From: Spinacia oleracea
Lineage: Eukaryota > Streptophyta > Magnoliopsida > Caryophyllales > Amaranthaceae
Reading direction: 5' to 3'
Length of the DNA: 64,000 nucleotides
Assembly: GCF_020520425.1 (NCBI RefSeq)
Contig: NC_079487.1
Location: 112,316,141 to 112,380,140, forward strand
The translations under genes and the position numbers were made by a program. Positions 6,550-56,310 of the stretch are shown in pieces (within the stretch, counting starts at the first letter, position 1; every line of letters starts with the position of its first letter). The notes under the pieces are model-generated. The model did not search any database, was not told where the DNA came from, and saw only the letters and a list, made by a program, of their open reading frames with translations.

Positions 6550-7208
6550 GCTCATTTTCGAAAACCAGTTTCTCCTTAATTAATTCTGATTTGAAAACCA
6601 ATTTCTTGAATAACTTTGGTTGATCTTCAAGAACAGGGATCAGATGGTATAAACGGGGATGCCCAAATTGTCGTAACAGGCTTAGGCTGGACACCCATTT
6701 CGCATATTAATTTGCGAAAAATGACCACTCATCATATCCCATTGTCTGCCTGAAGGATCATATTTTAATCATTAACTAAGCTTTTGGTTATAAAGCACCT
6801 CAGCAAATGATACCATCTATTATACCCGATGTGGGACGCATAATTTTTCTTAGTCTTCGTTTACTTGTGTTTTCTTTATCTCTTACCTTCTACGGAGTAC
6901 TTTGTATCTTGTATCATACTATCATATTCTTGTTCTTCTTCTACACTTCAAATCATCCGAAATATGAGACTCCAACCGTAGCTTGTAATCTTGTACGGAG
7001 TATGAATTAAGAAATTCCAGAACCCAACAATACCTTTCATCTTCAATGAAGTGGAAGTTGAATTAATAGGACCTGTATAGTTCAAATGGGAGTGAACTGT
7101 AGTGACGGGGAAAGACATTGTAATGAAAAGTGTTCCGTTATTGGAATATTGTGATGTGGTCAAGTCTTTGGATTTTGAGCCGGCATCTAAATTAGTGGCA
7201 AATACTCC
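5945..7208. other. Intergenic DNA with a (TAA)n microsatellite
   Basis: About nine TAA units lie at 6517-6545. The surrounding sequence (for example GGTTTCGGGTCATATTCG near 6130) has the composition of old repeat DNA. No gene or clear element end is seen. Confidence 0.4.
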
Positions 7209-9611: not shown

Positions 9612-11932
9612 GGATGTACCCGGGTACAACCAGCTTTGGCTGTACCCTCAAAAAGCGACGCGCGCGCCTGTATCGTTTGTTCTTTTTTGTTGTAATGTTT
9701 GTTCTTTCTTGTTGTTTTTTAAATTCAAGATAAAATTGTTCATAATTGTTGTATTGTTTGTTCTTTTTTCTTGAATTTTATGTTCTTTTCTATATTGTTT
9801 TTTTTTGTTGCTGAATTATTTGTTCTTTCTTGTTTATTGTTTGTTCACAATAATCATCTGGTTAATGTTCATAATGAAATTAAGCTTTTCATTGATCTTT
9901 TATGTTTTTATAAGCGCATGACCGTCTGTATTGTTGGTTCTTTCTTTTTGTATGGTTTATTCTTTCTTGTTGTATTGTTTGTTCTTTCATGTTTTTTTTT
10001 TTAAATTCATCATAAAATTATTCATAATTGTTGTATTGTTTGTTCTTTCTTCTGGAATTTTATGTTCATTTGTATATTGTTTGTCCTTTTTTGTTGTTCT
10101 TTTTTTTTTATTTATTTATTTAATTTGTTCATAATAATCATCTGGTTAATGTTCATAATGAAATTGTTCATACTTTTTGTTTTATTTGTTCATATCACGT
10201 GTGTTCTTTGTTCTTTGTTGTTCTATTACTGAGCATATTTTAAACCATTGTTCTTTTTATTAACATATTTTTTTTTTCTTTGCATGTTCATCATTTTCAA
10301 ATCAGTATGCATTTTTAAATTACATGTGATCATCATATCAAATTACTTACTATTTTCATTTTCAACCTACAACAATGAGGAAATTGAAACCGTGAAAGTC
10401 AAATATAATGGGTTCGTTATTATAAGTGACTAGACTTTAGCCCGTGCAATGCACGGTTTCTATTAAATTGTTATGTTAAAATAAAACTCCTACATATATC
10501 AATTGCTATATTTTATATATTAGATTAAATTGACTTTTTTTATATTTTGGATTGAATTTCATTTTAGATTTATTTTTTAATTATTATAGTGTTTGATTTT
10601 GGATGAAATTGTACATAAGAAATATTAATAATTATTTAATAAAAATATTTACGTGGCACCTAATTATTTATCTACGTGGCATTCGACTTTTTAATTCAAA
10701 AATAATTTTGAAGTCTTATTTTTCATTGGATGAAACATTAGATTTCCTACGTGGCGCTCTAATATTGGATTAATGTTTGATTTTTGATTGAATTTTATTT
10801 TAGATTAGTGTTTGATTTTGGATAAATTTTATTTTAGATTTATTTTTTTAATTATTAGAGCGTTTGATTTTGGATGGAATTGTATATATTAGTAATTAAT
10901 TAATTAATTTAAATATCTAGGTGGCACCTAATTAATTATCTACGTGGCACTCGGTTTTTTTAATTCTAAAATAAATTAAAAATCTTATTTTTCATTGGCC
11001 GAAACCATTAGTAATCCTAGGTGGCGCTCTAATAGTTCAGCAAATATGCCTCCTTTATATATGTATATTAGATTACAAGGTTTTTCTTAATGGAGCAGAT
11101 TTATTATAAACTAAATATTAAATAAATTACATAGGGAACCCCATCAAGTCTCACGACTTAACAGTTAACATTAGCACTTGTGGATAATATAAATTATACT
11201 GCACTATTTTTTGTTGCTTGTAATAACTTTATTAATCCCCTTCTCAAATTATTATTCCGGTAAAGAAAGTGAAGGACACAATCCAGGTTGTGCTATTTGT
11301 GACCATAGAATATTCGAACCAAAATTATATATGAAGTACGTAGTAACATTTTGGTTAGAAACCGCAAAAGTCAAATATTGTGTTCAAAACACATTTCATA
11401 CACATATTCAAAAGTATAAGAACTCGAGAATACATCAAAAGCAAGATTCAAGAAAAATATTATTTGATATAGAAAAATAAGTGGATGATTTCTACCAATA
11501 TCTTGTAATATAAGTACAATTTTGCATAGGCAATGCCTAAAATGTTCAATTTTTGGGTAAAATATGTTATTTGGCATGTTTTAATAGCTCAATATATGTA
11601 AATATATGTTCAAAGTAATAACATAGTAATGCAATAACTAAGTTCATTTTAAAATTAGTAAATACAATACTCATTTAACAATCAGTAGATAAATGTTCAT
11701 TTCTAAATTGGTTGAATAAATGAGGATTGTCAAATAATTAGATAAACATTCATATTCGAATGAGTAGATAAATGTTCATTTTCAAATAAATAAATAAATG
11801 TTTATTTCCAAAATAATAAATGTTTATTACCGAAATAACAAAAGGTTTATTTCCAAATAAATAAATAAATATTCATTTCCAAAATAATAAATGTTCAGTT
11901 TAAATGGGGGTACAGCCAGCTCTGGTACATCC
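9612..11932. mobile_element. Inverted-repeat (foldback-like) element, about 2.3 kb, with a nested repeat
   Basis: The left end reads GGATGTACC followed by a hairpin of GGGTACA and TGTACCC. The reverse complement of the right end begins GGATGTACCAGAGCTGGCTG. Inside, the left arm is T-rich with TTGTTTGTTCTTT words and the right arm is A-rich with AAATGTTCATTTCC words. The left arm contains a direct repeat with an offset of about 283 bp (around 9720 and 10003), including ATAATCATCTGGTTAATG. The short frames at 9771-10134 are by-products of the T-rich repeats. No transposase is seen. Confidence 0.5.
10434..11075. repeat. Nested non-coding repeat with two units of about 277 bp
   Basis: It begins near CTAGACTTTAGCCCGTGC, a motif common in dispersed plant repeats, and ends near TATATATGTATATTAGATTA. 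Two similar units follow each other (about 10549-10800 and 10826-11035). Each carries TTTGATTTTGGAT, a CTACGTGGC or TAGGTGGC word, and TTATTTTTCATTGG. Family not assigned. Confidence 0.5.
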
Positions 11933-12276: not shown

Positions 12277-12759
12277 ATGTCGCTAATTCCTAGCTTTTTC
12301 GGAAACCGACGGAGCAACGTCTTCGACCCATTCTCTCTAGATATGTTTGATCCCTTTCACGACTTCCCCTTCAATACCACCTCTCAGTCCCTCTCCATTA
12401 CCGGCGGCGACACTGCTGCGTTTGTGAACACCAAAATTGACTGGAAAGAGACTCAGGATGCTCATGTTTTCAAGGCGGATTTACCCGGACTGAAAAAGGA
12501 GGAGGTGAAGGTTGAGGTGGAAGATGGAAAGGTGCTTCAGATCAGCGGAGAGAGAAACAGGGAGCAGGAGGAGAAGAATGACAAGTGGCACCGTGTTGAG
12601 AGGAGTTCTGGAAAGTTCTTAAGGAGGTTCAGGCTGCCGGAAAATACGAAGATGGAGGAGATCAAGGCAAATATGGAGAATGGTGTTCTGACTGTGACCG
12701 TGCCTAAAATGGAAGAGAAGAAGCCTGAGGTCAAGTCAATTGACATTTCTTCTGTCTAA
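12277..12759 (+). CDS. Class I small heat-shock protein, 160 aa
   Basis: An ATP-independent chaperone of the cytosol and nucleus that forms oligomers and holds unfolding proteins for the Hsp70/Hsp100 machinery. The N-terminus [20 protein letters not shown] is diagnostic of plant class I members. The alpha-crystallin domain spans about residues 50-145, with the consensus II stretch [16 protein letters not shown] (68-83) and consensus [10 protein letters not shown] (136-144). A C-terminal IDI (155-157) is the I-x-I motif that joins dimers. There is no intron, as is usual for the class, and the length is normal. The start is the ATG giving the conserved MSLIP. Two heat-shock elements and a TATA box lie upstream. 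A close paralogue lies 3 kb downstream in the opposite direction. Confidence 0.97.
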
Positions 12760-15730: not shown

Positions 15731-16222
15731 TTAACCAGAAACGTCGATGGACTTGATCTCAGGCTGCTTCTCCTGCATCTTAGGAACTGTAACAGTAAGC
15801 ACCCCATGTTCCATATTAGCCTTAATCTCATCCATCTTCGCATTTTCAGGTAGCCTAAACCTCCTCATAAACCGTCCAGAGCTACGCTCCAGACGGTGCC
15901 ACTTGTCGTTCTCTTCCTGACTCTCCCTGCTTCTCTCTCCACTAATCTGCAGCACTTTTCCATCTTCAACCTCAACCTTCACCTCCTCTTTCTTTAACCC
16001 TGGAAGATCCGCCTTGAACACGTGCGCCTCCGGTGTCTCCCTCCAGTCGATGCGGGTGTTGGCGAAGCTCATTGCGTTCCCGGAGGTTGAGTTTGTGGTG
16101 TTTGGGGCAGCTGTGATTGACGTGTTGAAGGGAAAACCCTCAGATGGGTCCCATATGTCTAGAGAAAAGGGGTCTAATATGTTTGATCGACGTCCACTGA
16201 AAAAACTCGGAATCAGCGACAT
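15731..16222 (-). CDS. Class I small heat-shock protein, 163 aa
   Basis: A paralogue of the protein at 12277-12759 with the same cytosolic chaperone role. It begins [20 protein letters not shown]. The alpha-crystallin domain is at about residues 54-149, with [16 protein letters not shown] (72-87), GVLTVTVPK (140-148) and a C-terminal IDV (159-161) as the I-x-I-type motif. The open frame reaches upstream to 16351, but the ATG at 16220-16222 gives the conserved MSLIP start, so the extra 43 codons are taken as 5' UTR. No intron. The N-terminal arm differs most from the paralogue (an Asn/Thr/Ser-rich insert at 34-50). A TATA-like sequence lies 100 bp upstream, but no perfect heat-shock element was found nearby. 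Confidence 0.95.
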
Positions 16223-16322
16223 TTTTGTTTTAAATTTACTAGTGTTTAATTTGGAGCTGATTAAGGTGATCTGAATTCTGAAATGAAGTAAGGGGTGATG
16301 GGGCTTAATTAGGCTTAGGGGC

Positions 16323-16335
16323 ATATATATGTTAT
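16323..16335 (-). promoter_or_regulatory. TATA-like element of the minus-strand heat-shock gene
   Basis: The minus strand reads ATAACATATATAT here, about 100 bp before the start codon. Position and composition suit a TATA box. No transcript supports it. Confidence 0.4.
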
Positions 16336-16595
16336 AAAAGCTAGGGTGCATCAGCTAGGCTGCCAGCAGGTGGTTGATTTCTTGCATGCATCAGCTCTTC
16401 TTCTTGACATTTGTACATCTGCTTCACAGGTGGCGTTAGATTTGCATTTGTACGTTTCTGAAATGACAAATGCATGTTGTGCCACTTGTTGTAACTACGC
16501 AATTTTGTTCGCAACGACAGACCAAATTGCGTGCATTGCTCATGGTTTTAGTTTATCTCTTATAGAAAATTTCAAGGTTATTTTAGTAAATATTA

Positions 16596-17189: not shown

Positions 17190-17813
17190 CTCCCTCTTAG
17201 ATGTCCATTATTTAAAACAATACAATGGCCCTGTAATATACATGAGATGATGCCTCATTAAAAACTTTACCAAGAAAACCCCGTGGGATAAAAACTTAGT
17301 GAAGGAAAAAAGTACAGCACTCATCATAATACGCTTGGGATGTTACCTCGTTAAAAACCTTAACAGGAAAATCCAATGGGACAAAACTTGGTTAAGGAAA
17401 AAAGAGTGCAACGCGTATTTTTCTCCCCCTTATGGATACATCATTTGAGATCTTCTAGTTCAATGAATCTAATACTATTGATAACTTTCCAAATGTAGCA
17501 ACATGAAACTCTTTGAAAATTGATTCTCCACAATTTGACTTTAATTTTCAAACGTTCACTTGTATACACTGGGACACTAGGTGAATATTTATATCACCAA
17601 ACTTATGAAAATAATAACTGAAATAAATATATTTTCTTGTACATAGTATTACAAATCATCCTTTCATATTTGACATATATAAACCTTCTTCCGGAGGTCA
17701 TAAGTAGTAATAATCAATAATATTGACCAAAATTTCTTTAGTCATATTTTCATGGCAATACATGATAGTTAACAATATCATCATCCAACTTATAGGTATA
17801 ACATGTAGGACGT

Positions 17814-18598
17814 AATACTGCAAAATCCGAAAAATGGTTAAGAAAACGCGGGTCGAATATTTGATGTATGAAAAACTGTGACGTGTTATAAAACACTGTC
17901 TTAGAAGCAAAATTCGCCCCGACTATGGTGCAATCGGAAATGGCGTTGCCCCCCAAGATTTAACACAGCGTTTCTCCAAAATGTGCACTCAACTAAGGAG
18001 GAATTTGGAACTCATAATAATGCTCAGAATTTAGATGAACAGAAGAGAAAGAGAGTTAGAATTTTCGGTGTGTTTGAAATGATCCCAAGAACTTATTTAT
18101 ATAGCAACAACATTTTGTAACCGAAAATCACATTTTAATGACGTAATAAAAACCGAAGATCGGAATTTAAATGGGAGATTAAAACGTAGGCAATAATCAA
18201 GGAACCGTTTAACGTAAATCAAGGGGCGGTTACGATTCTGTCATAAAGGTTATGGAGTGAGCTACGTAACTGAACGGTCTCATAATAACTGGACCGCCGG
18301 TTACGTCTTGGCCCAAAATGGTGCGCGCACGTGCCACAAACACGAACCGGCCGAACAGGCAGCGGCGCACGAGGATGCCCCCTTCTAGCCCACACCACTA
18401 GGGGAAGTACTTCAAAGTATAAACATTACTTCCCTATATTTAAACAAAGGGAAAAGTTCATTTTCTTTTCATGTGGGACAAAGCCCTTTTTCTTCAAATA
18501 CTCCACTTGAAATGCCTACTTTTCATTTCTACCAATGTGGGACATTTTCACAAAATGGTAAAACTCTTTCTTTGCATTATTTCCAACAATCCCCCACA
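17814..18598 (-). repeat. Element II 3' LTR, 785 bp
   Basis: It starts TGTAGGACGTAATACTG and ends TTTCCAACA. Next to it lies TCCCCCACAAATG, which on the minus strand is the polypurine tract. Confidence 0.9.
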
Positions 18599-19830: not shown

Positions 19831-20090
19831 TAAACTCCCAATTATCTCTATTATATAAAGGAACAGCTGAGGGTAAATGAGTAAACACGCTTTTCGTGTC
19901 CCCTATGAATAGACGATAATACCCTCACTAACCCCAACCTTCGTTCGAAACCCTAGAGATTAACTGAGCGCACAATCTCTCCCTCCTCTCAACTCACGCC
20001 TTTTCTCTCTCCTCTCAACCCCATGGTAATTCTGCACCTCCCAGACTTCTCAAACCTCCTCATCTTCTTCCCCGGTCACTCATCTTTGAG

Positions 20091-20335
20091 TTGTACAACG
20101 TGACATATGATCATCGATCACTTATCATCACCGGCCGCCGTCGTATGCTTATCTCCACCGGCATCCACTACCCTCGCGCCACTCCCCAGGTCAGCTTTCT
20201 TCCTTTCCCCAGAAATTTGATGTCAATATTTCGATTTCAATTAAATTAACATTTCCTCCCGATTTTGGTGTAATACTACCCAATTTTCAGTTCAATTTCA
20301 ATTTCCAATTATTCTGATGTGGCCTGATTTGTTCT
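20091..20335 (+). pseudogene. Captured beta-galactosidase (GH35) fragment
   Basis: 20091-20189 reads [17 protein letters not shown] and then [11 protein letters not shown], the N-terminal start of plant family-35 beta-galactosidases, with a GT donor at 20190. A little further on, MWPDL (20317-20331) matches the next exon's beginning, but no AG acceptor precedes it and the frame stops soon after. Fragment only, without catalytic glutamates, so no enzyme is made. Confidence 0.75.
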
Positions 20336-20875
20336 CCGGTCGAAATTAAAGCCTCCAGACAAGCAGCAGGAGTTGATTCGTACTCTCTACTTAGGTACTA
20401 CTATCTCTCTAAATTTTTCTCAAATTCATAGTCATTATAATTACTTCAAAATCGAGAAAGTTGTAATTCTGGTAATTATTTGATGTAGTATTATGCAACA
20501 GGCCTAAAAATGTCAGCAATTTCGTGAATGTTGATTCCATTTTTGGTCCGGTGTGTATTTTATCTCCGATTAATTTCTTATTAACTTATTTTCCAGTTTC
20601 TTGAAGTATTATGTCACATATATTTCTTCGTTGTCATTTCTATATATTTGTAGTTGATTGTGATCTTCCAGCCAAACCTATGATTAAGGTTGTGTTGCTG
20701 TGTAAATTGACCTAAATTGATGATTTCGGCTGCATCTGTTTCCGTTGTCCGGTTATTCTATCTAACTGAGTTTTCGTTATATGATTATGCATTTTTTATG
20801 GAACAAATTTTTTATTTTTTTTGTCAGGCATGTTTGTGAGTATATTTTTATATGGGATGAAATATATTAGTGCAG

Positions 20876-21275
20876 GTGAGACAAATGTTGATTGCGATTC
20901 TAAGTGAATCTGAACTGAAGTTGTCAGATGAAATGATTGAAGGGATACTTTGTAAGGTAAGCTCAACCCGTTGCTTCATTTGCCTTGAATCAATTTTCGG
21001 TAGTGTTGCTGGGGTATTATAGAGACAGGGAACTAAGGAACTATGTCATCTACCCAGAATGGTTGCCTGTAAATTTACACCATATCCATAGAAATAATAG
21101 AAAATTTTCTAATTTGTTTTTCTGCAACAAATTCTTAACCAAAGAATGATTTATCTGAACAGGCATTCAAAGAAGCCGATGTAGATCTAGAAGGAAAGAT
21201 TTGTAGATCTGAATGGCATCAATTTACATCCAAAAATACCCAATTGTTGAAAAGAATGACTCTCCAATATCTCAA
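20876..21275 (+). pseudogene. Captured calcineurin B-like (CBL) calcium-sensor exons
   Basis: The exon at 20876-20956 (AG before, GTAAGC after) reads RQMLIAILSESELKLSDEM. The exon at 21163-21275 reads AFKEADVDLEGKICRSEWHQF and ends LLKRMTLQYLK. These match consecutive exons of plant CBL proteins, including an EF-hand loop (DVDLEGKICRSEW) and the LLKNMTLPYLK-like tail. Intron and splice sites are kept, so capture was of genomic DNA. The remaining exons are missing. Confidence 0.8.
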
Positions 21276-22416
21276 GTATGTGTGATAATCTACTCTCATA
21301 CTCAAAAATGTATAGCATTAAAAAAAATTGAAATCAGTATAGCTTGCCAAATATGAAACGCATAGCAGACTATAAGGTTCTGGAAGGTTCTTGAACTACG
21401 TAGTTCGATTGCTTAATTCCTATACGGTTTATTGTTAAAATTAGGTTAATTTTTACTGAAATTTTGTGTTTTTGTGATGATTTGAATGAAAAATAGTTGG
21501 ATTTTGATAGATTTATTCCGAATAGATCAGCTATGGATTTTGATTTTGGTTTATTTTGTGAGTTTAGTTTGATTAAAAATCGGAAGGTAGCAGTATCTAT
21601 GGGGTCCTGAATCTTCCAAGGCCGAAAAAAGGTCAGATTTTTTGCATTTTGGAATTTCTGAAATTTGCAAAAAAGGTTAAAAATATTGCACATTTGAATT
21701 TTTTTGAATGTTGTTGATTGGTGATATTGGTGTTGTTGATTTGGTGAATTTGCATTTGATTCGATTTGCGATTAGCTGGTTGACATTTTGATTTCTGTTT
21801 CGGTGTCTGATGGCTGGAAAAATAAGACATTTTGGATTGAATTAGGTTAAATTTGGATTACTAAGACATAGTGTCAAAACTGATCTCCTTTCAGGGCATT
21901 GAATTAGTATTTCTGCTTATTCTCTCTCGCATTTGCTACCAATCAAAGGGCAAGGAAACGTCTGAGAAAATTTACCCTTCCTGTCATTTTTTTTGCAGGC
22001 TTCTCGACCTTTCTCCTCTGCTCTCAGCTTCGTAAGTTCTTGATTTATAGTTTGCAAATACTTTTAGATTTTTAGTTTTTGGAGTAAAAGTTAATTCGTT
22101 TCTTTTGATACAACTGGCAACACATTAATACACCGGATTAGCCTATATGTTGCGACATGTCTTTCTCAAAGAATAGTCTGTTCAAGAATGTTAGCTACAT
22201 TCTTTTTGTCAAATGCATCCAGTGACACATAATCTTTTTTATTTTTGTTGTGATATGTCATGGCCTACCCCGTTCCTCTAACTATATATTTCTTTTATTG
22301 AATATTGATTACAGATGTAAAAAAGATTTTCCAGAAAATTCGCAGAAAATTTAAATTTGAAAGGGTAAACAACAATATAATATTGCTAATGAATTGGTTT
22401 GTTTTGGTGAAATCAG

Positions 22417-22580
22417 GAGAGGAGAAGTTGAGAATGAATGCATGTCAGCTGCACTAGGGAGTCGAGCAGTGAGGGAGCCAAGAGTTGTAGTCAAACAACA
22501 AGTGATATTGATTTCTTAGATGATGGATATAGATGGAGAAAATATGGCCAGAACGTGGTTAAGGGAAATCCTGATCCAAG
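22417..22580 (+). pseudogene. Captured WRKY transcription-factor exon
   Basis: The end of the exon reads [22 protein letters not shown], interrupted by GTAATT at the intron position conserved in WRKY domains (after the NPR). Upstream, VREPRVVV matches the usual linker, but one base is missing between it and the domain, so the two parts are in different frames. The usual WRKYGQK has N for K here. The zinc-binding half of the domain is absent. Confidence 0.85.
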
Positions 22581-23084
22581 GTAATTAAATTCAATCTCTA
22601 AATGGAGAATTGGTTGCCACTGCCTTGGGGAACTTATGATGTTTGTGGTTTTAATTGATCGTTTCTTTGTTGTTATGTTTTACTGTTCTGGTTTATTTGT
22701 GTGATTAAGGAGTTGTTTCTTGACCCAATGTTGATAAATGGTTTACATGGGTTGATATAATGTCTGGAATTTGATTGTGGGTATCGTTAAAATCAGTAAA
22801 ATCATGTGGGTTTTGGTGGTGAGAATTATGGACTTGAATTGAGGTTAGTTCAGACAAAACCTTAAACCTTATGTACATGTAGTCATGATTGTGAATTTTC
22901 GTAGTGGCGAACTTAAATGGTTTTAGTGTTGTTGTGATGAATTTTTATGTACACAAATTGCGGGTTCAATGCGGGTAAGTGAAATAGGTTGGTTAATTCA
23001 TGGTTTTGTGAGAATTGTTGGGGCAATTTTGAGTAAGATTTCTGGTGGCAATTTCCCAGTCAGTTTATTCTCTGACAAGTCTAA

Positions 23085-23450
23085 CAGAGTCATAGTTGAT
23101 GACTTGCCAAGATTTTGGGGAACTTCCCCCGTCAGAAAGTTGGAGTAGATAGATAAGAAGCTCAAAGCCTCAAAGTCTTTTAGTTTCCCAAGACAGATGT
23201 AATTTCTCCAGTGGCTGTCTGTTGTAAATCTGTAAGCCCCGGAGTTTAGGAAAGCGACATATTGAATCTTCCTGTCAATTTGTTGACTGACATATCCAGA
23301 TCTGTCAGCTCCGTCAGATTACCCAACTCTTCTGGTATTGTACCTGTGAGCTCATTATAGTAAAGCATGAGGGACTTGAGGTTCTTAAGCCTTCCTAGCT
23401 CATGTGGAATCCAACCTCGAAGGTAGTTTCCACTCAGCTCAAGGTTTTGT
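23085..23450 (-). pseudogene. Captured leucine-rich-repeat (receptor-type) fragment, reversed
   Basis: The minus strand reads [20 protein letters not shown], then [13 protein letters not shown], then [20 protein letters not shown]. These are consecutive 24-residue plant extracellular LRRs (LxxLxLxxNxLxGxIPxxLG). The frame is lost further on. Opposite in direction to the other captured pieces. Confidence 0.75.
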
Positions 23451-24131
23451 GTGATTTTTTGGTGTTCACAACAATATGATGAAACTGTGGTGTTAGTTGT
23501 TCAGATTTTTTGTTTTGGTTTGGCTTGCTTTGGTTCCTGTTATTGGCTTGCTTTGGTTTCTTTTTTGGCTTATGGCCTGGCTGTTGTGGCTCTTGGTTGT
23601 TTCAGGTTCTTTCTTCTGGCCTTGCAGGTTTTTTACAGGCTGCTTTCTGGTGAAGTTTTGCTTCTCCTACATTGTTGTCCTGCTGCACTGTGGCTTTGCT
23701 TCTGCTGCAATGTTGTTTTGGTTCATCTGTGTGCTCCTGTTGTGTCTTTGGCCTGCTGCTGCTGCTGCTGGGGTTCTACTGCTTTGTGGCCTTGCTGTTT
23801 TTTTTGGCCTGCCGGTGCTGCTTTGTTTTTCTTAGCCATTTTGTTGTTGTTTTGCTGGTTGTGTATGTCAGTTAGGGATGCGGGGTGTGCTCCCCTAACT
23901 GAGGTCTTTGCTTCTTTGTTTTGGATTTTAAGTTTTTACTTCCTTTTGCTCATTAGTTGCAATAAAATGATTTAAAGTTCATATATTATCTCGCACGCAT
24001 CGCGTGCATACAAGACTAGTTTTAGCATATTCAGACTGAGACACATTATTGCCTTTATTCTTTTTCAAGTGTATGCTAGCATCATAAGGAGTTTTAACTG
24101 GCACAACATCAAAACTGTTAAATTTATTTTT

Positions 24132-25037: not shown

Positions 25038-26377
25038 TGAAGGAAATAATGCCCTTGGTCCAAGTATGCATTCTATGTTAAGTCTAATAAATGCGGTTCA
25101 GTATTAATTAACAAGTTAATAATTCAGTGAGATCAAGTGAGCTGAATGCCTAGCTAGAGGCCGCTTCAGTTCAAGTGGAATTAATGATATTAATCCACAG
25201 CTTACTCTTGACTGAACCCGTAGGGTCACACAAATAGTACGTAAACGGATCAAGTATTTAATGGCATTAAATACTCCATCTATGAATATTCGGAACCGAC
25301 GGATCTTGGTTTCAGTGGGAGCTAAGATCGTCACAGGCAAGAAATGAATACTCCGGAAACGATGATATTGCCGGAAACGGAAATATGGATCGTATCGGAA
25401 ATATGAATATTATCCAAGTCGTAGATGTTGCCGGAAACGGAAACATGGTACGTATCGGAAAATATTGTTGGAAATGGAAATATTACCAGAATCGGAAATA
25501 TTGCCGGAAACGGAAATATTGTCAGAATCGGAAATATTACCGGAATCGGAAAATAATTCCGGAAACGGAAATATTAAATATTTGTTCGAAACGGAAATTA
25601 ATTCCGGAATCGGAAATATTAAATATTGTTCGTATCGGAAATAGATTCCGGAAATGGAAATTTAATCGGAAGCGTATCGTACGAATTAGCATCGGACGAG
25701 GCCTGCCGGACGAAGGCCCAGCACGAAGCCAGGCCATCGCCCAGCAAGCACGCACGCCACAGCCCAGCGCGCACAAGGCCACGCATGCGTGGGCCGCGCT
25801 GCGTGGGCTGCTGCTCGCATGCGTGGGCAGCCCTTGTGGCTGCCGTGTGTGTGTGAGTTTGAGCTCATGCGAGATTCCTGAATCTGCAAGAGTCAGTGTA
25901 TGATTAAATGTCTATTCCTATTGGATAAATTGATTAAGTAGAATTCATGTAGAATTCTAATTCCAATTAATTCGCATCCTACTAGGATTACGATTCCTTT
26001 TCCATAACTCTATAAATAAAGGCCTAGGGGTCATAATTTATACACAAGTTTCAAAGTATTCAAAAGTGAGTTTTTTGAGAGAAAATTCAAACACCCATCT
26101 TGCCCCAAAAGTGCCGAATTTTCTGAGTACCTTAAGGGCGATTCTAGTTGGTCAATCTTAAGGCGGATCCGGACGTGCTGTGGACTATCTACGGAGGGAC
26201 GACACTTGGAGTCCTAAAAGACTTGTTCTTGTTCGGTTCGGGCGCAGCTAGGGAAGGCACGCAACAAAGAGTATGCATCTAAACTATGCTAAATGATTAT
26301 GTGTAAATAATATGTTTCCTGGGTTAATGGTTGTTTCCGCATGATCTATGTAATGTCATATGTATCATAACCTAACA
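25038..26377 (+). repeat. Element III 5' LTR, 1340 bp
   Basis: It starts TGAAGGAAATAATGCCC and ends CATAACCTAACA. It contains an array of short units built on CCGGAAACGGAAATATT (25360-25660), a GC-rich block (25690-25850) and a TATAAATA near 26011, probably the LTR promoter. Confidence 0.93.
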
Positions 26378-27419
26378 GTGGTATCACGAGCCCCTTATTA
26401 TTTTCATAATCTAAATTGCATGAACATGGTTAAATATTACAAATTTGCAAGAATTAAAAGGGGTGATTAATTTTCGTAATTGTTAATTAATTGCAAATTG
26501 CGTTTATTTAATTATACGTACGCAGTTTTTCGGCAGTTTCTTCATTACTCATCCGAATTGAGTGATTTTTGTGTCAATTCCGCATGTAAAAGGCATTCTA
26601 AAATTTTGACAAAAATAGTTTTTTTCTGCCGAACCCAGAATTCTCAAATTCGAAGCCTAACTATGACTTTTCGAAGGTTTTAGTTTTTCGAATGCAAAAT
26701 TTCGTAAATTTAAGATGTTAAATTAAATATTTGCGATTCTTGTTGATAAATCTTGAATTTTTGATTGACCTATTGCATATGTTTAACAAGTTTGAATGCC
26801 TAGTCTTGTTAATTATGCAATCTAATTTGTAATTATGATTAATTTGTTGAAAATTAGAATAATTTAGAATTAATTTGATTTTCATAATTAATTGTAATTT
26901 AATTAGAAACCTATGATTAAAAACCACCATAAAAATTGTAAATTTACGATAAATTTTAAATTTTTATGACCTAGACTTGAATCCATATCAATCGGAAATC
27001 AATTGGATAATAAATTTTCGATTTTTTCGCCCTAAAATTATGAAATTAATATTATTTATTAATTTGTCATTAATTTTAAATATAAATTTTAAATTTTATG
27101 CGATTCGTTCAAATAACTTGCACGCGCGAAGCAATGGACGCTTCGTGTTACCCTTAAGGGGTGTTGTATAATGCGGGCATGCAACGACGAGCAAGGGAGC
27201 TCGTCGCCCGTGCGGCACGAATGCAATGAGCAAGGGCGTAGTGCACGAGCACAAGGCAGCAGCCCTGCCTTGTGTCGTGTGCCACGAGCAATGAACGTAT
27301 GGGCATGGGCGAGGGGCGAGCCAAGGCAGTCGCGTGTGGGCAGCAAGCGAGCTGCGCCACAGCGCGCGCTGCCTCGCACAACAGCGCGCAGCCTCGTGCG
27401 CAGCGAGCGCAAGCTCGCG

Positions 27420-27660
27420 TGCCACGAGCGCTGCGCCCAGCATCACTCGCGCGCACCAGCGAGCGATCTCGCGCGCCAGCGCGCGATCTCGCGCGCCAGC
27501 GAGCGATGCAGCGCCCCAGCGAGCGATGGCTCGCGCGCACCAGCGAGCGATCTCGCGCGCCAGCGCGCGATCTCGCGCGCCAGCGAGCGATGCAGCGCCC
27601 CAGCGAGCGATGGCTCGCGCGCACCAGCGAGCGATCTCGCGCACCAGCGAGCGCGGTAAC
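27420..27660. repeat. GC-rich tandem repeat, 84-bp period, in element III
   Basis: Units start at 27451, 27535 and 27619, each made of four variants of a roughly 21-bp word such as CGCGCCAGCGAGCGATCTC. 84 is divisible by three, so open frames run through in several frames on both strands (27096-27859). They have no domain and are read as by-products. Confidence 0.85.
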
Positions 27661-30600
27661 GCGCGCGCGCTGCGAGCGATAGCTCGCGTGCGGTGGGCGC
27701 TGTGCGGAGGCTTGCGTATGGGACAGCAGCAGCTATGCAACGAGCGCATGGGCTGCGCGCACATGGCCAGCAATGGCTGTGTGCGTACAGCCCATGGGCG
27801 TGCAACGCGTAGGGTGTTTGCGTTACGATTAGATCGTTTTGAATGTTTAATTTGAAAATTTCAGTTCACGTAAATTTTAATTGATTTTAAAATTAATAAT
27901 TTGAATTAATTTCTTGGATTTTAATTTTGAATATTATAATTATAATAAATGGCATTTATTCTAATTATTTTACTAAAATTAAAATCATAAATTAATTTAA
28001 ATGTGACTGAAATTAAAATTAAATTTTTGGATTCAATTATAAATTTATATGAGCTTTAAATTTTAATTAAATTTGTATGTTTCCGGTTAGACTAGAAATA
28101 CAATTTTATGTTTAAAATTAGTAAAGCATACGAATTTATTGGTTTGAGTGGGAGTGCTTTTAGTCATAAACTCTTGATTAGGTCTACAAATCCTTAAGGT
28201 TAAAACAACTCGATTAGAATTAATAAGGACTGAATAATTGGTAGATTATTGGTGCCCTTGATTAATTGCTGCAAATGTTTACGTGATGCATAATGTGTTT
28301 AACTAACCAGCTATGTGGGCCATTCATGATAATGAATGGGTGAATGGTATATATTGTATATGTACTGTTTTGCAGGTTATGAAGTGACTAGTATGGCCCA
28401 AATAGGATAGAAAATATGGTCTGCGTACCATTAATTTGAATGTAATTGGTCTAAAGTACCAAAGTTGTTTTTCAATTCAAATATGGTCTGCGTACCATCA
28501 AATAGTTGTAATTAGTTATAGCTTATCCTATTTGAAGAAAATGGTGCCTCCCACGGAGATTTTCAAGACGGACTTTGAAGTTAAAGCTTCAAGATGAAGT
28601 CGGGCCATACTAGATCACAAATATCTTATGCATGTTTTAAGTTATTTATTGTTTTAAATATGTCTTAAAATGCATGAGATCAAAAGCTTGATTATGTTGC
28701 ATGATTAAGGATTTTAGTTCACTTAAAATCTAACCAACATAGTAAGAGCCTTAAGTTCCAAACTTAAAAATTGAGTTAAAAGGTGCCATGCCAAAATATA
28801 CACTTGCTTGGATATCCTTTACATCAATCTAGTAATAGTTTTCGCTCAGCGAGGTGTTACTTATTGGTCCTAAAGGGGCAAGGTACACAAATAATTGTGA
28901 GTACATGTTAGTTTTGGTGAAACTCAACGATATAAGTAAGGAGTCCTTTTATGTCGTGGCAAAATCGATAGGTTTACCTAACAAGTTCTTAGACGTACCT
29001 ATCAACCAAGAGTAGTTTCTAGACTATTAGCAAAAGGCTTTTGCTTACCTAAAATGTTTTAGAATTGAGTCGACAAACTGTGCTTAATTCTTCAATGGTT
29101 TTAGGATCTTGGAATCATTTTATTCACACCTGCCGGAACAATAAAATCGAATAAAATGCTAATAACTTGTTTGAATTGCATGGTTGCTTTAATTTCAAGT
29201 TATTATTCATGATAAATGTTTAGACTTTGCATGCTTCAATGTATGTTTTAATTATTGTTTATAATTAAATATCTTGCACTGCAATAAATCCTTTTAGAAA
29301 GGTAACAGTAAATTTCCTCGATTGGTAGTGAATCCAAGAACGATTCACGGAAAAGAGAGAAAGTGAGCAATTTAAAATGTACGTTTCTTATATCGACTTT
29401 TATGGTTGTTTTCGAATATCAAAATCGAATGGCAAACCAGTTGGTGCTTGTGAATTCAAAATACACTGTAGTTTTGAGATCATAAAGCATTGAGTTTAAT
29501 ACGCTCAGCTTTACCAATGGTTAACAACCTAATATCTTTGTCCATTTAATTCTCGAATGAGTCTAGTCCCTAGACATTCAAATAGATCGGTGCTTAGAGA
29601 ACTTTAGAAGCTTCTGGTAAGATCATCTAGTTGGAACAAAATATTCAACATAAATGGTAAAGAACCTTGTTGGTGACATTGGACATGTCTAACAAAGTAT
29701 AAAGGTCAACACTAAAGAATTCAATTCTTAAGACTATAAGAAAGGGTACAAGAAATAGGAAGACGAGGAACAATGAAAGGAATTTACGATTCCGTTTCTA
29801 CCTATAAGTTTATATTTAAAGAGAAGTAACCTAGCAATCAAACTTCCTTGGTATCATATACCGCTTGAGGTTCTTACTTCGGTAATAACTCAAACAATGG
29901 AAGCTAGGATACACTAATGACCTACAAGTGGGAAATGAAGCATGGCATTGCTACATTAATTGTAGGGTCATCTAGTTTGTTTTAAGTCCTTTCAAAGGCT
30001 GGAACTTAATGGCTACTTTGTTCCATAATCAGCATACCTAAATTTCTGTTTCAAACACAGAAAGACTCACATTCAGAAGAACAAAAACAATGTTTGTTTG
30101 TTTATTTGAATGAAATGGTCAATTACTGGTTGAGTCAATATGCTTGATTAAAACAAACAACTCTTTAAAGAACTTTACTAGGTTCAAATCAAACCCTTGA
30201 TTTGAGTTCCATTAAATCTTTGGCATTGTTGCTTAGACCATATCAACAAGTTAACATTCATAAGCTCTATTTTGATGGACTTTTGAAAGTTGGTTGATTT
30301 CTAGATCAACTTAAGACAAGCTAGTCTTACTTGTTGAAAGTAACAAAAGATGTGAACTATTGTTAGAACGCCTAGACAATAGAGTTCAAAGCTAAAGAAA
30401 TATTTTATGACTTTATTATTTCGCATGGATTTGAGTAAATGTAGGTTTATTTACTCAAATGTGATATAAGTTGAATCTGTTTGGCTAGTTCAAAGATTCA
30501 GAAGTATAAAATCCACTTGGCAAGAAATCATAAAGATCTAGGTTAGATCATGTTAATGATTACTTGAGACCAAATATGATCATCAATGATTGTGTGTTGT

Positions 30601-31007
30601 AATTTCACAATCTAACTCCATAAGATATGGCATATCTTAGTTGGAATAATTGAAGTCAATTAGTACTTGATTCGATTAATGATGAATCATAAAGACTTTT
30701 CCTATAATTTCTAAAACAAAATGCTCAACTACCACCAAACTAAACCAAATTCGTCAAAGCTATTGAAAAGTAATTTCAGAGTAACTTTTCATAAAATATA
30801 TCTAGAGAGTTGCAAAACTCAGTGGGAGCTTAGTGTTTGTCATTCGACAAACTAAGGCCCAAGTATAGATATATGTTTCATTGTGATTTATTCAAATGAG
30901 ACACAAGGGTATTGTTTCTACCACGAATTTTTTGAGAACATAATGTTTGTTTGCTCGAAATAATGTCCTTTTGGAGATTCGTTTCCAAAATGACAAGTGG
31001 GAGAAAA

Positions 31008-31349
31008 TAGACCTCGAAAGTCTTCGAGGCGAACAACAAACATAAACGGACATTCCGGAGGCTTTTCGAAGTGCTTCAGAAAATCCGAACTTATTCTTTA
31101 AGACTTTAGAAGTGGCTTTAAAGAATAGACTTCTCTTAGAAGACTTTACAAGTGCTTCAAGGAGAACAGAATATTAAATAGACCTCGAAAGTCTTCGAGG
31201 CGAACAACAAACATAAACGGACATTCCGGAGGCTTTTCGAAGTGCTTCAGAAAATCCGAACTTATTCTTTAAGACTTTAGAAGTGGCTTTAAAGAATAGA
31301 CTTCTCTTAGAAGACTTTACAAGTGCTTCAAGGAGAACAGAATATTCAA
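31008..31349. repeat. Near-perfect 171-bp tandem duplication inside element III
   Basis: The unit beginning TAGACCTCGAAAGTCTTCG at 31008 is repeated from 31179 almost without change. Within each unit AGACTTTAGAAGTGGCTTTAA and AGACTTTACAAGTGCTTCAA echo each other. Confidence 0.9.
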
Positions 31350-33079
31350 AGGACTTTCAAGTGGCTATTGATATTCTATTGTTTGATGTTCTATACCCTA
31401 GTAGGCATAGAGTTCAAGTCACTGGAACTATGAGATTCTTCTATTAGATAGTGAAGAAACGTGGAGTTCAGGTCATTGAAGCTATGCGATTCTTCCATCA
31501 GATAGTGAAGAAACCTACAACTTGCAGTCAAACTATTATCATGTAGATTAATGAGTTTGTGACTTGTAAGAAAGCTATGACGAAACCCAGATTCCCTAAA
31601 ATGGTTAGAGGCCATATATAGACTCAAATGTTTTAAATGGTTAGAGGCCATAAAACATACTCAATGTTTTGATGACAAAATTGAAATTTTGTTGATTTGC
31701 AAGAATAGTTTCACACCTATTGGTTGCAAGTTTGTTTTAAAGGATAAAAAACCATCAAACATTGAATTGTGTTCACACACAAAGCTAGATTAGTTGCTAA
31801 AAGTTACAAGCAAATTCACGATGTGGATTGTGTTGAAACCTCATGCATAATCGTAATGCTCAAGTCTATAATTCAAGAAATGATTGCATATTGGTACATA
31901 TAGCAATTGGATGACAAAACGTATTCCTCAATCAAATGTTGGAATAAACTATGTACATGGTATGTCATAGGATTTGTGGATCCAAATAAATGCTTGAAAA
32001 AGAAAGCTAGCTTATGAAATCTAAGTACATATTTAAGCAAGCAATTGGGAATTAGAAATGTATTTTAGTGAAGCTAATAAGTATTTTAGTTTCATAAAAG
32101 ATACATGATTCTTATAGATATATAAGAAGTTTAGTGGGAGTACTTAAAACTTAATTGGTCCTATGTGTATTACACACATATCTCTCTATTGTGAAATAAC
32201 ATTCAAATGCTAATGACTTAGATTTGAAATAATTCATCAATGATGGACCATGGCGAAACTTAGTACATACTGGGTATTAAGATCTATTTACAAAAATCTT
32301 ATGATATTGTTTTGGATTAAGTAATGGCATTTACTAAATCAAACACGAAAGTCTCCATTGGAGATATTCGACCCATGTGAATAAATCTAAGTAAAGGATG
32401 TTTGAACTATGTATAAGCATTTACTAAGTTAAACATCAAAGAGTCTAAATGAGATTCTTAACCTATATTATATGTCAAAGAATTTAGCTGGATTCAGTAT
32501 CTACTGAAACTAGATAAGCTAAAGTTACATGAATAGAATTCAATTGGGAATTATTCTCCAAAAGAATTTATCATGTATGATATAATATGAGGATCGCCAA
32601 AAACGTATCGTATGACTTTAGGCATGACGAACATATACCAGTCTCTATTGATCTAAGTGAAGATCAACTAGATTGAGATCAAGAATACTTATGGTACTTG
32701 AAAAGGTACATAGGAATAGTTCTTGATTCAAGGAAATAAAGATATGCTAAATATTGATGCTACACGCATAAACACTGGCAAAGGATCAAGCAAGACCCTT
32801 TGGAGTTAACCATTGATAAGGACGAGCTATAGAGCATCGTGTTTTGAAATGGCAACATGGGTTGGAGACCATGAGTTGTTGCGTGGGAAATTAAAATATT
32901 AATTTCTATGTTCTAAGATACAGCTGGAAAGTCTTCCACATATCTGTGAACTGCTTGGATAAGTAAATCCAAACAAAGCATCACTAGCAACCTAAACAGT
33001 TGAAGTAAAAGTAATTATTGCCTAAGAAGCAATAAAACAGGGTTGTTTAAAGTTCTTCACTGAACTTGGGTAGATCACC

Positions 33080-33206
33080 TGTCTGCTGGCTCGATGGTTC
33101 TTCATTGAAAAATGCGTAGAACCACTCTTGAAGCAAGAAAAACGTCTGCTAACTTGATGGTTCTTCATTGCAAAATGAGTAATACCACCATCGAAGTAAG
33201 AAAGAC
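33080..33206. repeat. Degenerate 65-bp tandem duplication inside element III
   Basis: GATGGTTCTTCATTG occurs twice about 65 bp apart, each followed by AAAATG(C/A)GTA and CCAC. Confidence 0.55.
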
Positions 33207-34235
33207 TAGATCACATAATAAACAAACTCGAAAAGATCTTATCATCATATCTCGAAGAACATTCGATGAAAAGGATATTAAGATTGGCAAAGCATGATAA
33301 CTAAACCTATGCAACAAGTGAGAAGCAACACTCATGTTGTAGCACTGGAAATCAAGCATAGCTTTGAATTCCATGAATTGTTTTAGAAGATGGGTTTGAG
33401 GCCCATGGTTATAAAACATTGGGGTTGAACATTTATCATATATGAAATGTATTTTCATATTCCATTTAATCTTGGTTTAGTATTAAATGATGAGTCCCTT
33501 CAAATTTGACGATATATTCAAGATAGACTGTCAGGACCAGTCCTGTGACTAAGAAATGTCTATCAAGTGAACTTGAATGTCAAAGGTTGAAAATGGTCCC
33601 TAATCGGAGTTTTCTATAAAATTGGACGCATAGAAAACGTTAGACGATTAGAATGCAAGATGACTAGTAGTTCTGTTTCTTGAACTATGTGGACATGGCA
33701 ATGTCATAATCATTTGCATAGATACTTACTTTGGGAAGACTAGTATCGGACAAGACCTATGAAACTTTACTGTAAGAGATGAAAGTCTGTCATAAGTAAA
33801 TTTCATTAAATTATTAGACACTAAATCCTCAATACCTGAGTGATTTGAGATTACTTGTTTGAGAACTGGTTGCTTTGACGTTGACCAACCGTCGCACCGT
33901 AAAAGGAGGCTATAAAGGCAACGCTCAGGTAATCACCTATCAAACGAAGTCTAATCTCAAGATCGCAAGATTGGGATTGTCCTCCCATAAATCGGGATGA
34001 GATGCTCAAAAGTTGTACAAGGCCACTCGGAGAGCTAGAAACTGTGAAATGCATGGCCGTGCTCGGATGAATCATAGGCTATGATTATCTGTTTATTTGA
34101 TCAGTTGAACTCTGAAACCGAGGAACACCTCTGGACATAATAAGGATGACAACTCTTACCTTATGTTCAAGAGCAAGCATCGAGCGACAAAGGAATTAGG
34201 AAATGCACACTTGTCCCTAAGGACAAGTGGGAGAC

Positions 34236-35574
34236 TGAAGGAAATAATGCCCTTGGTCCAAGTATGCATTCTATGTTAAGTCTAATAAATGCGGTTCAGT
34301 ATTAATTAACAAGTTAATAATTCAGTGAGATCAAGTGAGCTGAATGCCTAGCTAGAGGCCGCTTCAGTTCAAGTGGAATTAATGATATTAATCCACAGCT
34401 TACTCTTGACTGAACCCGTAGGGTCACACAAATAGTACGTAAACGGATCAAGTATTTAATGGCATTAAATACTCCATCTATGAATATTCGGAACCGACGG
34501 ATCTTGGTTTCAGTGGGAGCTAAGATCGTCACAGGCAAGAAATGAATACTCCGGAAACGATGATATTGCCGGAAACGGAAATATGGATCGTATCGGAAAT
34601 ATGAATATTATCCAAGTCGTAGATGTTGCCGGAAACGGAAACATGGTACGTATCGGAAAATATTGTTGGAAATGGAAATATTACCAGAATCGGAAATATT
34701 GCCGGAAACGGAAATATTGTCAGAATCGGAAATATTACCGGAATCGGAAAATAATTCCGGAAACGGAAATATTAAATATTTGTTCGAAACGGAAATTAAT
34801 TCCGGAATCGGAAATATTAAATATTGTTCGTATCGGAAATAGATTCCGGAAATGGAAATTTAATCGGAAGCGTATCGTACGAATTAGCATCGGACGAGGC
34901 CTGCCGGACGAAGGCCCAGCACGAAGCCAGGCCATCGCCCAGCAAGCACGCACGCCACAGCCCAGCGCGCACAAGGCCACGCATGCGTGGGCCGCGCTGC
35001 GTGGGCTGCTGCTCGCATGCGTGGGCAGCCCTTGTGGCTGCCGTGTGTGGTGAGTTTGAGCTCATGCGAGATTCCTGAATCTGCAAGAGTCAGTGTATGA
35101 TTAAATGTCTATTCCTATTGGATAAATTGATTAAGTAGAATTCATGTAGAATTCTAATTCCAATTAATTCGCATCCTACTAGGATTACGATTCCTTTTCC
35201 ATAACTCTATAAATAAAGGCCTAGGGGTCATAATTTATACACAAGTTTCAAAGTATTCAAAAGTGAGTTTTTTGAGAGAAAATTCAAACACCCATCTTGC
35301 CCCAAAAGTGCCGAATTTTCTGAGTACCTTAAGGGCGATTCTAGTTGGTCAATCTTAAGGCGGATCCGGACGTGCTGTGGACTATCTACGGAGGGACGAC
35401 ACTTGGAGTCCTAAAAGACTTGTTCTTGTTCGGTTCGGGCGCAGCTAGGGAAGGCACGCAACAAAGAGTATGCATCTAAACTATGCTAAATGATTATGTG
35501 TAAATAATATGTTTCCTGGGTTAATGGTTGTTTCCGCATGATCTATGTAATGTCATATGTATCATAACCTAACA
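34236..35574 (+). repeat. Element III 3' LTR, 1339 bp
   Basis: Almost base-for-base the same as the 5' LTR at 25038-26377. Preceded by the purine-rich tract. Confidence 0.93.
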
Positions 35575-37310: not shown

Positions 37311-38094
37311 TGTAGGAAGTAATACTGCAAAATCCGAAAAATTGTTAAGAAAATGCGGGTCGTATATTTGATGTATGAAAAGCTGTGACGTGTTATAAAA
37401 CACTGTCTTAGAAGCAAAATTCGCCCCGACTATGGTGCAATCGGAAATGGCGTTGCCCCCCAAGATTTAACATAGCGTTCCTCCAAAATGTGCACTCAAC
37501 TAAGGAGGAATTTGAAACTCATAATAATGCTCAGAATTTAGATGAACAGAAGAGAAAGAGAGTTAGAATTTTCGGTGTGTTTGAAATGATCCCAAGAACT
37601 TATTTATATAGCAACAACATTTTGTAACCGAAAATCACATTTTAATGACGTAATAAAAATCGAAGATCGGAATTTAAATGGGAGATTAAAACGTAGGCAA
37701 TAATCAAGGAACCGTTTAACGTAAATCAAGGGGCGGTTACGATTCTGTCATTAAGGTTATGGAGTGAGCTACGTAACTGAATGGTCTCATAATAACTGGA
37801 CCGCCGATTACGTCTTGACCCAAATGGTGCGCGCACGTGCCACAAACACGAACCGGCCGAACAAGGTGGCAGCGCGCGAGGATGCCCCCTTCTAGCCCAC
37901 ACCACTAGGGGAAGTACTTCAAAGTTTAAACATTACTTCCCTATATTTAAACAAAGGGAAAAATTCATTTTCTTTCCATGTTGGACAAAGCCCTTTTCTT
38001 TAAATACTCCACTTGAAATGCATACTTTTCATTTCTACCAATGTGGGACATTTTCACAAAATGGTAAAACTCTTTCTTTGCATTATTTCCAACA
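37311..38094 (-). repeat. Element II 5' LTR, 784 bp
   Basis: Partner of 17814-18598, with the same ends (TGTAGGA... and ...TTCCAACA), followed by the TAACA duplication. Confidence 0.9.
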
Positions 38095-41354: not shown

Positions 41355-44300
41355 ATGGCAGACATTGCTAAACTCCACCCTGCCACAACCGTCCCCAACA
41401 TCAAAACCTGTATTCCAATAACTTTGGACTACGAAGGCACTCAGTATAATAACTGGTCCACCCTTTTCCAATTGCACTGTCGTGCAAACCTGGTTATAGA
41501 ACACATCGTCCCTTCTTCCACCACTCCTGCTTCTGACTCTTCTGAATCCGACGCTGATAAGGCTGCTGCAAGGCTGCAATGGCAGCGCCTGGATGACATA
41601 GTGCGTCAGTGGGTGTATGGCACCATCTCAAATGACCTCCTCAACACGATTCTTAACCAGGACGATTCCGCTCTCGATGCTTGGAAACGATTGGAGCGTT
41701 TATTTCAAGGTAACAAATCTGCTAGGGCCTTGCACCTTGACTCTCAATTCACCACCACCAAGCTTGATCAGTTCTCCGGTGTCAAGCCATACTGCACCCG
41801 TATCAAAGTTCTGTCCGACAGTCTTCGTAACGTCGGCCAACCTGTGTCAAACGACCGAATGGTCCTTCGTCTCTTGCAGGGGCTCACCCTCGAGTACAAG
41901 TCTTTCCGCACGAATGTTCAACATCGTGTTCCCCTTCCACCTTTTGAGGAGGTTCGATCCATGCTAGAGTTTGAAGAGGAGTCCCTCCTCGACGGCGGCG
42001 ACACTGGTATTACCTCCGACTCTGCTCTCATTCACTCTCATTCTAATGACTCTGCTAGCCATGAACAAGCACAGGTTTCCCATCATGGAAATCCCAACAG
42101 ACATAACAATTCTAATTACAAGGGCAAGAAAAACAACCGGGGCCGCGGTGGTCACAACCACCGTAACAACCACCGGCACGGTGGTCAGTCTGGCAACCGC
42201 AACCAGCAGCCTCGCCCTTCGGACCAACAGCAACAAAGTCCAGCTCCGCCCTACTGGAAGTTCCCTCCTTGGGCTTCTCATTGGACTCCTCAACCGTGGG
42301 CCACCCCACCGTGTCCATACCCCTCCTCGAGCTTGCAATACCGTCAACCAGCCCCACGCCCACCGCCACATGCCGGGATTCTAGGTGCTCGGCCACAGCA
42401 AGCTTACTACATGTCTGCCCCTGCTCCTCCAACGAGCTACACCCCAACTGACATTGAGCAAGCTATGCATACTATGTCTTTTCAACCACCGGACGACAAT
42501 TGGTACATGGATACCGGTGCCACGTCTCATATGACGTCCTCTCAAGGTACTCTCTCGTCCTATTTTCAATTGAGCAAAGATAAAAATAATGAAATTGTTG
42601 TTGGAAATGGTAGCACGATTCCTGTTAATGGTTATGGGAGCACTTCTCTTACTAAAACCGATCCCCCATTAACCCTTAGGAATGTCCTTCATGCCCCCAA
42701 GCTTATCAAAAACCTTATTTCTGTGCGAAAATTTACTACTGATAATATGATTTATGTTGAATTTGATCCTTTTGGGTTTTCCGTGAAGGATTTGCGGACG
42801 GGGAACAACCTAATGAGGTGTGAGAGCTCGGGCGCCCTTTATCCCTTCAACAACAATTTCCGGCCACCACCATCACTTTCACTTCCTTCTGCTTTTCATG
42901 TTGCTTCATCAGAAATTTGGCATTCCCGTTTGGGGCATCCGGGCAATGTTATTCTTAGTACTTTACGTAGAAATGCTTTGATTAAATGTAATAAGGCTTC
43001 GAACCAGTTTTGCAATTCCTGTCCTTTGGGAAAATTAATTAAATTGCCTTTTTACGATTCTTTGTCATTTACTACTTTGCCATTCGACATTGTTCAAAGT
43101 GACCTATGGACATCTCCCGTAGTCACCACATCCGGTCATAAATATTATGTTCTATTTTTGGATAATTATAGCAATTTCTTGTGGACTTTTCCCGTTGCTC
43201 AAAAATCACAAGTGTTCAACCTATTTCTATCCTTTAGGACATATGTTCGCACCCAATTTGAAAAGGAAGTCAAAACATTTCAATGTGACAATGGCCGTGA
43301 ATTTGATAATCATCTCTTCCATAAATTTTGTGAACAACATGGCATGTCTTTTCGGTTTTCTTGTCCCTATACATCTCCCCAAAACGGAAAAGCGGAACGT
43401 AAAATTAAGTCCATTAACAACATCGTCCGTACCTTGCTTTGTCATGCCTCTCTACCTCCCACCTTTTGGCACCATGCTTTAGAAATGGCCACTTATCTTC
43501 TCAATATACTCCCCACTAAGGTTTTGAATTACAAGTCTCCGACCCAAATTTTGTACCAAAAAGATCCCACATACTCTCATCTACGGGTTTTCGGTTGCTT
43601 GTGTTTTCCTCTATTCCCATCAACCCAAATAAATAAGCTACAAGCTCGATCCACACCTTGTGTCTTTCTTGGGTATCCATCCAACCACCGGGGGTATAAA
43701 TGTTATGATATTTCAAGTCGTAAAATTATTATTTCGAAGCATGTATGGTTTGATGAGAAGCAGTTTCCGTTTGCCAAAATTAACTCTTCATCTTCAAACA
43801 CTTCATATGATTTTTTGGGTGATGATGTATCTCCTTTGCATTTTCATTATCTACATGGCCTTGCAAATACTCAACCACCTCAAATAGCCCAACCCAATCC
43901 AGCAGCTCATGTTGGGCCAACTCCCCCTTCCTCCCCCTTGGCCCAACACGCCAGTCCCCCTCCTGCAGGAACACCACACAATGTGGAGCCCAACTCTCAT
44001 TGCTCCCCTACTCCTAGCCCACCGCAGCTGCGACTTGCCACCCAGCCCAGCCAAAACCCGCCAGCCCTGCCCCGGCCCAGTCCATCACTGCAGCCCACCC
44101 AGCGAATGGGGACCCGTAGTCAGCATGGGATATTCCGACCTAACCCCAAATACAAAAATCACGCCTTACATGCCTCTACCCAATCCATTTCCCCTATACC
44201 AAAAAATCCCATAAGTGCTCTTAATGACCAAAATTGGAAACATGCTATGCAGGATGAATATAATGCTCTTATTGAAAATGGGACGTGGGACTTAGTACCA

Positions 44301-48726: not shown

Positions 48727-49125
48727 GTTAAAGCTAGTGGCGACAGGCCCAGCAAACGCATATAGAGGATCTGCAATCAGGGCAGCACTAGGCTCCTGGT
48801 TTGCAGCATCGAGCAAAATCTGAGACAAGCAACCTCAAAAGGGTTCTGTGCGGCGATTGTTCATGGTAGATAGAACTGTGTAAGTGTCCGCATCAGGAGA
48901 CTTGATATAGGTATCAAGGAAACTGTCATCCAAGATGTGGAAGGTGAAGTGTGGGAAATGGACAGGAGTTATAGAGTTGTAATGGATTTGGATGATGGTT
49001 ATGGAGAAGTCTTTAGAGTAGAGGAGAGTAGCTAGAAGAAGCAGTGGGTTTATATGACCTGTCAAAAGTGCAGGTACTAGTAGTATTCTACGGCTTAGCT
49101 TTCTCTGCTGGATTACTTCTTCCAT
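48727..49125 (-). pseudogene. UDP-glycosyltransferase pseudogene, first-exon fragment
   Basis: From 49125 the minus strand reads MEEVIQQRKLSRRILLVPAL, the glycosyltransferase N-terminus with GHINPLLLLATLLYSKDFS (the catalytic His lies in GH). After TEPF (48835) a TGA stands where the paralogues have CGG or CGA for Arg (EPFRDCLSQIL), a likely C-to-T nonsense change. The reading then continues GCLSQILLDAANQEPSAALIAD to 48727, where similarity ends. The intron and second exon are missing. It is closest to the first exon of the gene at 56474-58226 (shared VLSxMNN). Confidence 0.85.
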
Positions 49126-56179: not shown

Positions 56180-56310
56180 ATGGTAGTAGGTAGCTGTTAA
56201 GCCTTTCTAAAGATACATATGAAGAACCATCTTCCTTGACACAAAGAACTGCCTTCTCCTTCAAAAATGCGACACAAAGAACTACCTTCCAGCATCAGTT
56301 TTCTGAATTC
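56180..56310 (-). pseudogene. C-terminal UDP-glycosyltransferase fragment
   Basis: The minus strand contains KEKAVLC-like and EDGSSYVSLE-like words matching the last 40 residues of the array proteins (compare KEKATLCLQEGGSSNKAI of the neighbour at 56474). It was left by a partial duplication or deletion of a further gene copy and lies just downstream of member C. Confidence 0.6.

Follow-up and report, generated by a model that had tools for sequence, protein, structure and literature searches.

Introduction

Helitron insertion makes no target duplication, and a Rep and helicase (RepHel) protein is expected of autonomous Helitrons and is not required of their non-autonomous members. According to one published description, the hallmarks of a Helitron are a 5'-TC and a CTRR-3' terminus, a GC-rich hairpin of 16-20 nt sited 10-15 nt before the 3' end, an AT target, and ends that carry no inverted repeats (PMC6591975). 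Capture of host gene fragments by such elements is well documented, most of all in maize; a gene-capturing Helitron has inner pieces of host origin, ideally with introns that agree with those of the donors. In maize, each Helitron holds zero to nine gene fragments that are thought to have been gained stepwise (PMC3288121), and chimeric spliced transcripts have been documented (PMC4528327). A rice survey found pieces of two genes in 337 of its 552 predicted elements (61%; PMC2575219). A study of Brassica napus puts at least two fragments in 35.25% of gene-capturing Helitrons, a count of exon fragments that need not come from different genes, and assigns 73.26% of captured exons to untranslated regions (PMC11986588).

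Here, we describe an insert at positions 19845 to 24019 of a 64,000-nucleotide stretch of spinach (Spinacia oleracea) DNA, referred to as the window. We read it with high confidence as a non-autonomous Helitron that has pieces of four plant-type genes aboard and that inserted into a copia element.

Results

The joined copia flanks fix the borders of the insert

The insert (19845 to 24019, forward strand; 4,175 bp) lies between an A and a T inside a Ty1/copia element on the minus strand (17804 to 38094), which has the target duplication TAACA on both sides and LTRs at 17804-18588 and 37311-38094. An empty-site test was possible inside the window itself, since the insertion hit a copia coding frame. 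When the two copia flanks are joined without the insert, the RT/RNase H frame is continuous, with SEYAK meeting IIGSL at the junction, and it stays open for more than 35 residues before the junction and more than 60 after it. The joined segment aligned with the intact copia ORF at 41355-45743 of the window over 135 positions with 30% identity (E 1e-18), and a Pfam search of the separate flank pieces returned RVT_2 in one (E 2e-9) and no match in the other. Two details were counted against the Helitron reading, namely a stop in the decayed copia flank, 37 residues before the junction, and two opposite one-residue gaps in the alignment, which fall near the junction and not at it. Given that the two flanks join in frame exactly at these positions, the borders of the insert are fixed, and the internal empty site is decisive evidence for Helitron insertion. 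A first-pass annotation made from the letters of the sequence had placed the borders at 19845 and 24019 and had proposed comparison with an empty site; both positions proved exact, and the borders passed that comparison when it was made on the copia coding frame within the window.

Termini of the insert

The T of the initial TCTC is position 19845 and the G of the final CTAG is position 24019, with borders reading A/TC...CTAG/T. The 5' terminus, TCTCTATTATATAAAGG (19845 to 19861, forward strand), is the sole match to this string in the window at up to 3 mismatches. The 3' terminus (23990 to 24019, forward strand) presents the hairpin GCACGC-ATC-GCGTGC, an 8-nt spacer and CTAG. This GC-rich hairpin has a 6-bp stem and is located 12 nt from the 3' end; its length of 15 nt is one base under the published 16-20 nt and was counted slightly against the Helitron reading, and its 8-nt gap to CTAG falls inside the 2-10 nt range of EAHelitron. 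The last 35 nt of the insert fold at -6.9 kcal/mol, a value equalled or bettered by 1 of 200 shuffles. TC and CTRR termini stand at the exact borders of an insertion into an AT site, and a search for target duplications of 2-11 bp beside the insert found none. No terminal inverted repeat was found either, the best match between the ends being 8 of 15 positions.

The window was also scanned for the hairpin motif (a stem of 6 bp or more and, within the next 4-14 nt, CTRR-T). This recovered seven sites, one of them the Helitron's own, whereas 20 first-order Markov windows had 0.35 on average. Six of the seven were inspected: the copia ORF holds one at 42004, GC-rich repeats hold another, and two more resemble additional Helitron ends. 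Since the motif is not rare in this window and is not decisive by itself, the Helitron call rests mainly on the target.

Searches for further copies gave no match in the window, whether for a second copy of either terminus at up to 3 mismatches, for the exact gapped pattern of the 3' end, or for any part of the insert by blastn (E 1e-5). Exact patterns of the 3' end had 0 matches in viral contigs or prokaryote genomes, although a plant element would not be expected there. The six frames of the insert contain 42 stop-free stretches of at least 45 residues, the longest with 182 residues, and each was scanned against Pfam. None of the 42 matched a Rep or helicase (RepHel) family, and none had a match above cut-off to any family beyond the four described below; the sub-threshold matches in the insert were Polysacc_syn_2C, RepB (12.9 bits) and TPR_XPO7 (14 bits). 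Two open stretches of the insert were compared with the PDB without a match, and an Rfam search of the whole window placed nothing in the insert and one snoRNA outside it.

The insert carries pieces that match four gene families

Three of the four putatively captured genes run along the forward direction of the Helitron, and the LRR piece is reversed. The most 5' of them is an exon piece of a beta-galactosidase of family GH35 (20085 to 20189, forward strand), which ends at a GT donor and whose part at 20094-20189 matched the PDB entries 6ik6/3w5f (E 9.3e-7); in Pfam, its GH35 match (E 0.024) reached 14.7 bits, under the cut-off of 27. It is followed by two exons of a calcineurin B-like (CBL) gene on the forward strand. 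The first (20876 to 20956) has both an AG acceptor and a GT donor, and the second (21163 to 21275) has an AG acceptor and a donor that is apparently one base short. The intron that separates them has GT and AG borders, and the two exons joined matched CBL2 (1uhn) without a gap across 65 residues (E 7.7e-14). In Pfam, the first CBL exon alone had no match, and the second gave EF-hand matches under cut-off. The third piece is a WRKY exon (22417 to 22580, forward strand) that encodes the N-terminal portion of the WRKY domain, with an AG acceptor and with a GT donor after the residues GNPDPR. Its best PDB match was WRKY4 (1wj2, E 1.3e-13), and its Pfam WRKY score of 29.3 bits lies above the cut-off of 21 (E 1e-6). 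No PDB match was obtained for the frame upstream of the WRKY domain, where we assume that a 1-nt frameshift is likely.

The fourth piece, on the minus strand (23031 to 23449), derives from the ectodomain of an LRR receptor kinase. It is frame-broken, extending over at least two reading frames, with one Pfam LRR_1 match per frame (E 2.7e-10 and 2e-5), and the best PDB chains for both frames were LRR receptor kinases. An NCBIfam search with 4 pieces of the insert showed an LRR-type likeness to bacterial LRR proteins, far under the cut-offs. A further captured exon may lie at 21999 to 22031 (forward strand), where 33 nt are bounded by AG and GT; the open stretch around them had no match in Pfam or the PDB.

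Six of the seven splice borders expected in the putatively captured exons are present, these being the beta-galactosidase donor, the acceptor and donor of the first CBL exon, the acceptor of the second, and the acceptor and donor of the WRKY exon. The 3' border of the second CBL exon reads CTCAA^GTATGTG; the expected donor is presumably CTCAAG^GT, so that one base appears to have been lost. The first-pass annotation had named pieces of a beta-galactosidase, a CBL sensor, a WRKY factor and a reversed LRR protein, several of them with intact splice sites. All four assignments were borne out by the PDB and Pfam matches, and the border count agrees with its remark on splicing. With plant-type families matched at the protein level, the best reading is that the pieces were probably captured from host genes.

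The Helitron is younger than its copia target

The two copia LTRs are 97% alike, differing at 23 of 783 positions (K2P 0.030). At substitution rates of 2.5e-8 to 7e-9, the copia element would be about 0.6 to 2.2 million years old. The Helitron is younger than the copia element because it is sited inside it. The copia LTRs also show 3 gap runs per 783 aligned positions over two lineages, a rate that predicts at most some 1.7 indels in the roughly 890 bp of putatively captured exon for the time after the copia insertion. Firm frame breaks in the cargo are few, with the LRR piece lying in two frames and the WRKY break a presumed one. Therefore, such small numbers give no dating of cargo decay relative to the last jump.

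A second, younger LTR element (25038 to 35574, no strand assigned) is nested in the same copia element and has the target duplication CGACG. It is 10.5 kb long, its 1.34-kb LTRs are 99.9% alike, and GC-rich tandem repeats occupy 27.4-27.7 kb; among the listed ORFs of at least 130 residues, none in it is long and pol-like. It is very young and apparently non-autonomous.

Discussion

Other routes could also bring several gene pieces into one place. Double-strand-break repair can also yield multi-gene inserts without target duplication, which was counted in favor of a patchwork of filler DNA, in which copies of parts of several genes would have filled a break in the copia element without any transposon. 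That no second copy was found, either of the termini in the window or of the 3' end in the viral and prokaryote collections, fits such a patchwork as well and was counted against the Helitron reading. However, the insert starts with TC, carries its hairpin 8 nt before CTAG, is flanked by A and T and leaves the copia frame intact, and we consider the filler-DNA origin very unlikely indeed. A short element with the same layout in the window (11072-10430, minus strand) was in turn counted for the Helitron reading. Pack-MULEs are TIR transposons with target duplications, and a Pack-MULE or another TIR transposon carrying gene pieces can hardly account for an insert in which the ends match at best at 8 of 15 positions and no 2-11 bp duplication is present, even though capture of host coding DNA is common to both and is reported for Pack-TYPE transposons (PMC8903248).

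A third alternative accepts the Helitron but takes what it carries for a working chimeric gene. Splicing the four forward exons in silico (beta-galactosidase, two CBL and WRKY) yielded a 113-codon ORF in which the beta-galactosidase and CBL frames are kept and the WRKY exon is entered in the frame read as native. The frames agree over the junctions, the splice sites are present, and 2 of 1000 shuffled exon sets reached 113 codons. Nevertheless, nine combinations of phase, made with 0-2 extra bases at each of the two inter-gene junctions, gave ORFs of 66 to 126 codons, one of them longer than 113. The ORF is long because its exons are coding, and the in-frame chimeric ORF was rejected as anything special, given the long ORFs reached in other phases. 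In addition, two or more ATGs in other frames come first (with the first exon started at 19957 by the analyst's choice), the ORF ends short of the WRKY domain, and its Pfam matches are to EF-hands only, all under cut-off. A working chimeric gene is thus highly unlikely. It is likewise very improbable that a transcribed and spliced beta-galactosidase/calcium-sensor/WRKY message gives a new small EF-hand-like protein, or that small RNAs from it act on several signalling genes simultaneously; the cargo is broken, and most likely no working protein is made.

For the non-autonomous Helitron that we favor, movement would have depended on rolling-circle proteins from another element. Its gene pieces may have been gained in earlier rounds, probably one at a time as in the model put forward for maize, before the element inserted between A and T in the copia element, the step that the joined flanks show. 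Were the Helitron transcribed, small RNAs directed at the donor genes could arise, or a chimera could be spliced together, as the first-pass annotation had suggested.

In having Helitron ends around several unrelated gene pieces, the insert is like the gene-capturing Helitrons of maize and differs from them in its gene set and, going by its neighbouring genes, in what looks to be a dicot host. It shares multiple captures with the Helitrons of Brassica napus, counted there as exon fragments. By contrast with the mostly untranslated captures reported in B. napus, the recognised pieces here are coding exons. The first-pass annotation had held four captures in one copy to be notable. The maize range and the B. 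napus proportion weaken this judgement, and four pieces per copy is a good example of a well-documented process and not a new kind. Among the titles and abstract openings screened, we found no literature on a Helitron with this gene set, and a literature search for the hairpin string gave one match, for its shorter form, in a CAPS-marker paper. Knowledge of Helitrons is unchanged by this element. Its value is that of a clean single-locus multi-capture Helitron whose empty site can be read from one window, together with a limit on how old it can be, and in which several coding exons are shown travelling together with splice borders.

Other features of the window

The sequence around the copia element contains further features of its own. 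Another 3' end resembling that of a Helitron occurs at 2381-2415, where an 11-bp GC-rich stem is followed by CTAG/T; no 5' end was identified for it. The short Helitron-like element at 10430-11072 (minus strand, 643 bp) reads A/TCTAATATACATATATAAAGGA...CCGTGCATTGCACGG-GCTAAAGT-CTAG/T, with its 5' end placed by eye. Roughly 1.2 kb downstream of this element is an ORF at 12277-12759 (forward strand), which together with another at 15731-16351 (minus strand) forms a pair; the two are convergent, small heat-shock-protein-like by reading, and 80% alike over 324 bp. The snoRNA found by Rfam, Z279/snoR105/snoR108, is at 6636-6740 on the minus strand (91.6 bits). Downstream, the stop-free copia-type ORF at 41355-45743 has 1,462 codons and possibly belongs to an intact element, its family being assigned by reading. 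Finally, glycosyltransferase-like genes and partial copies, also classified by reading, form a tandem array at 48800-63800 on the minus strand.
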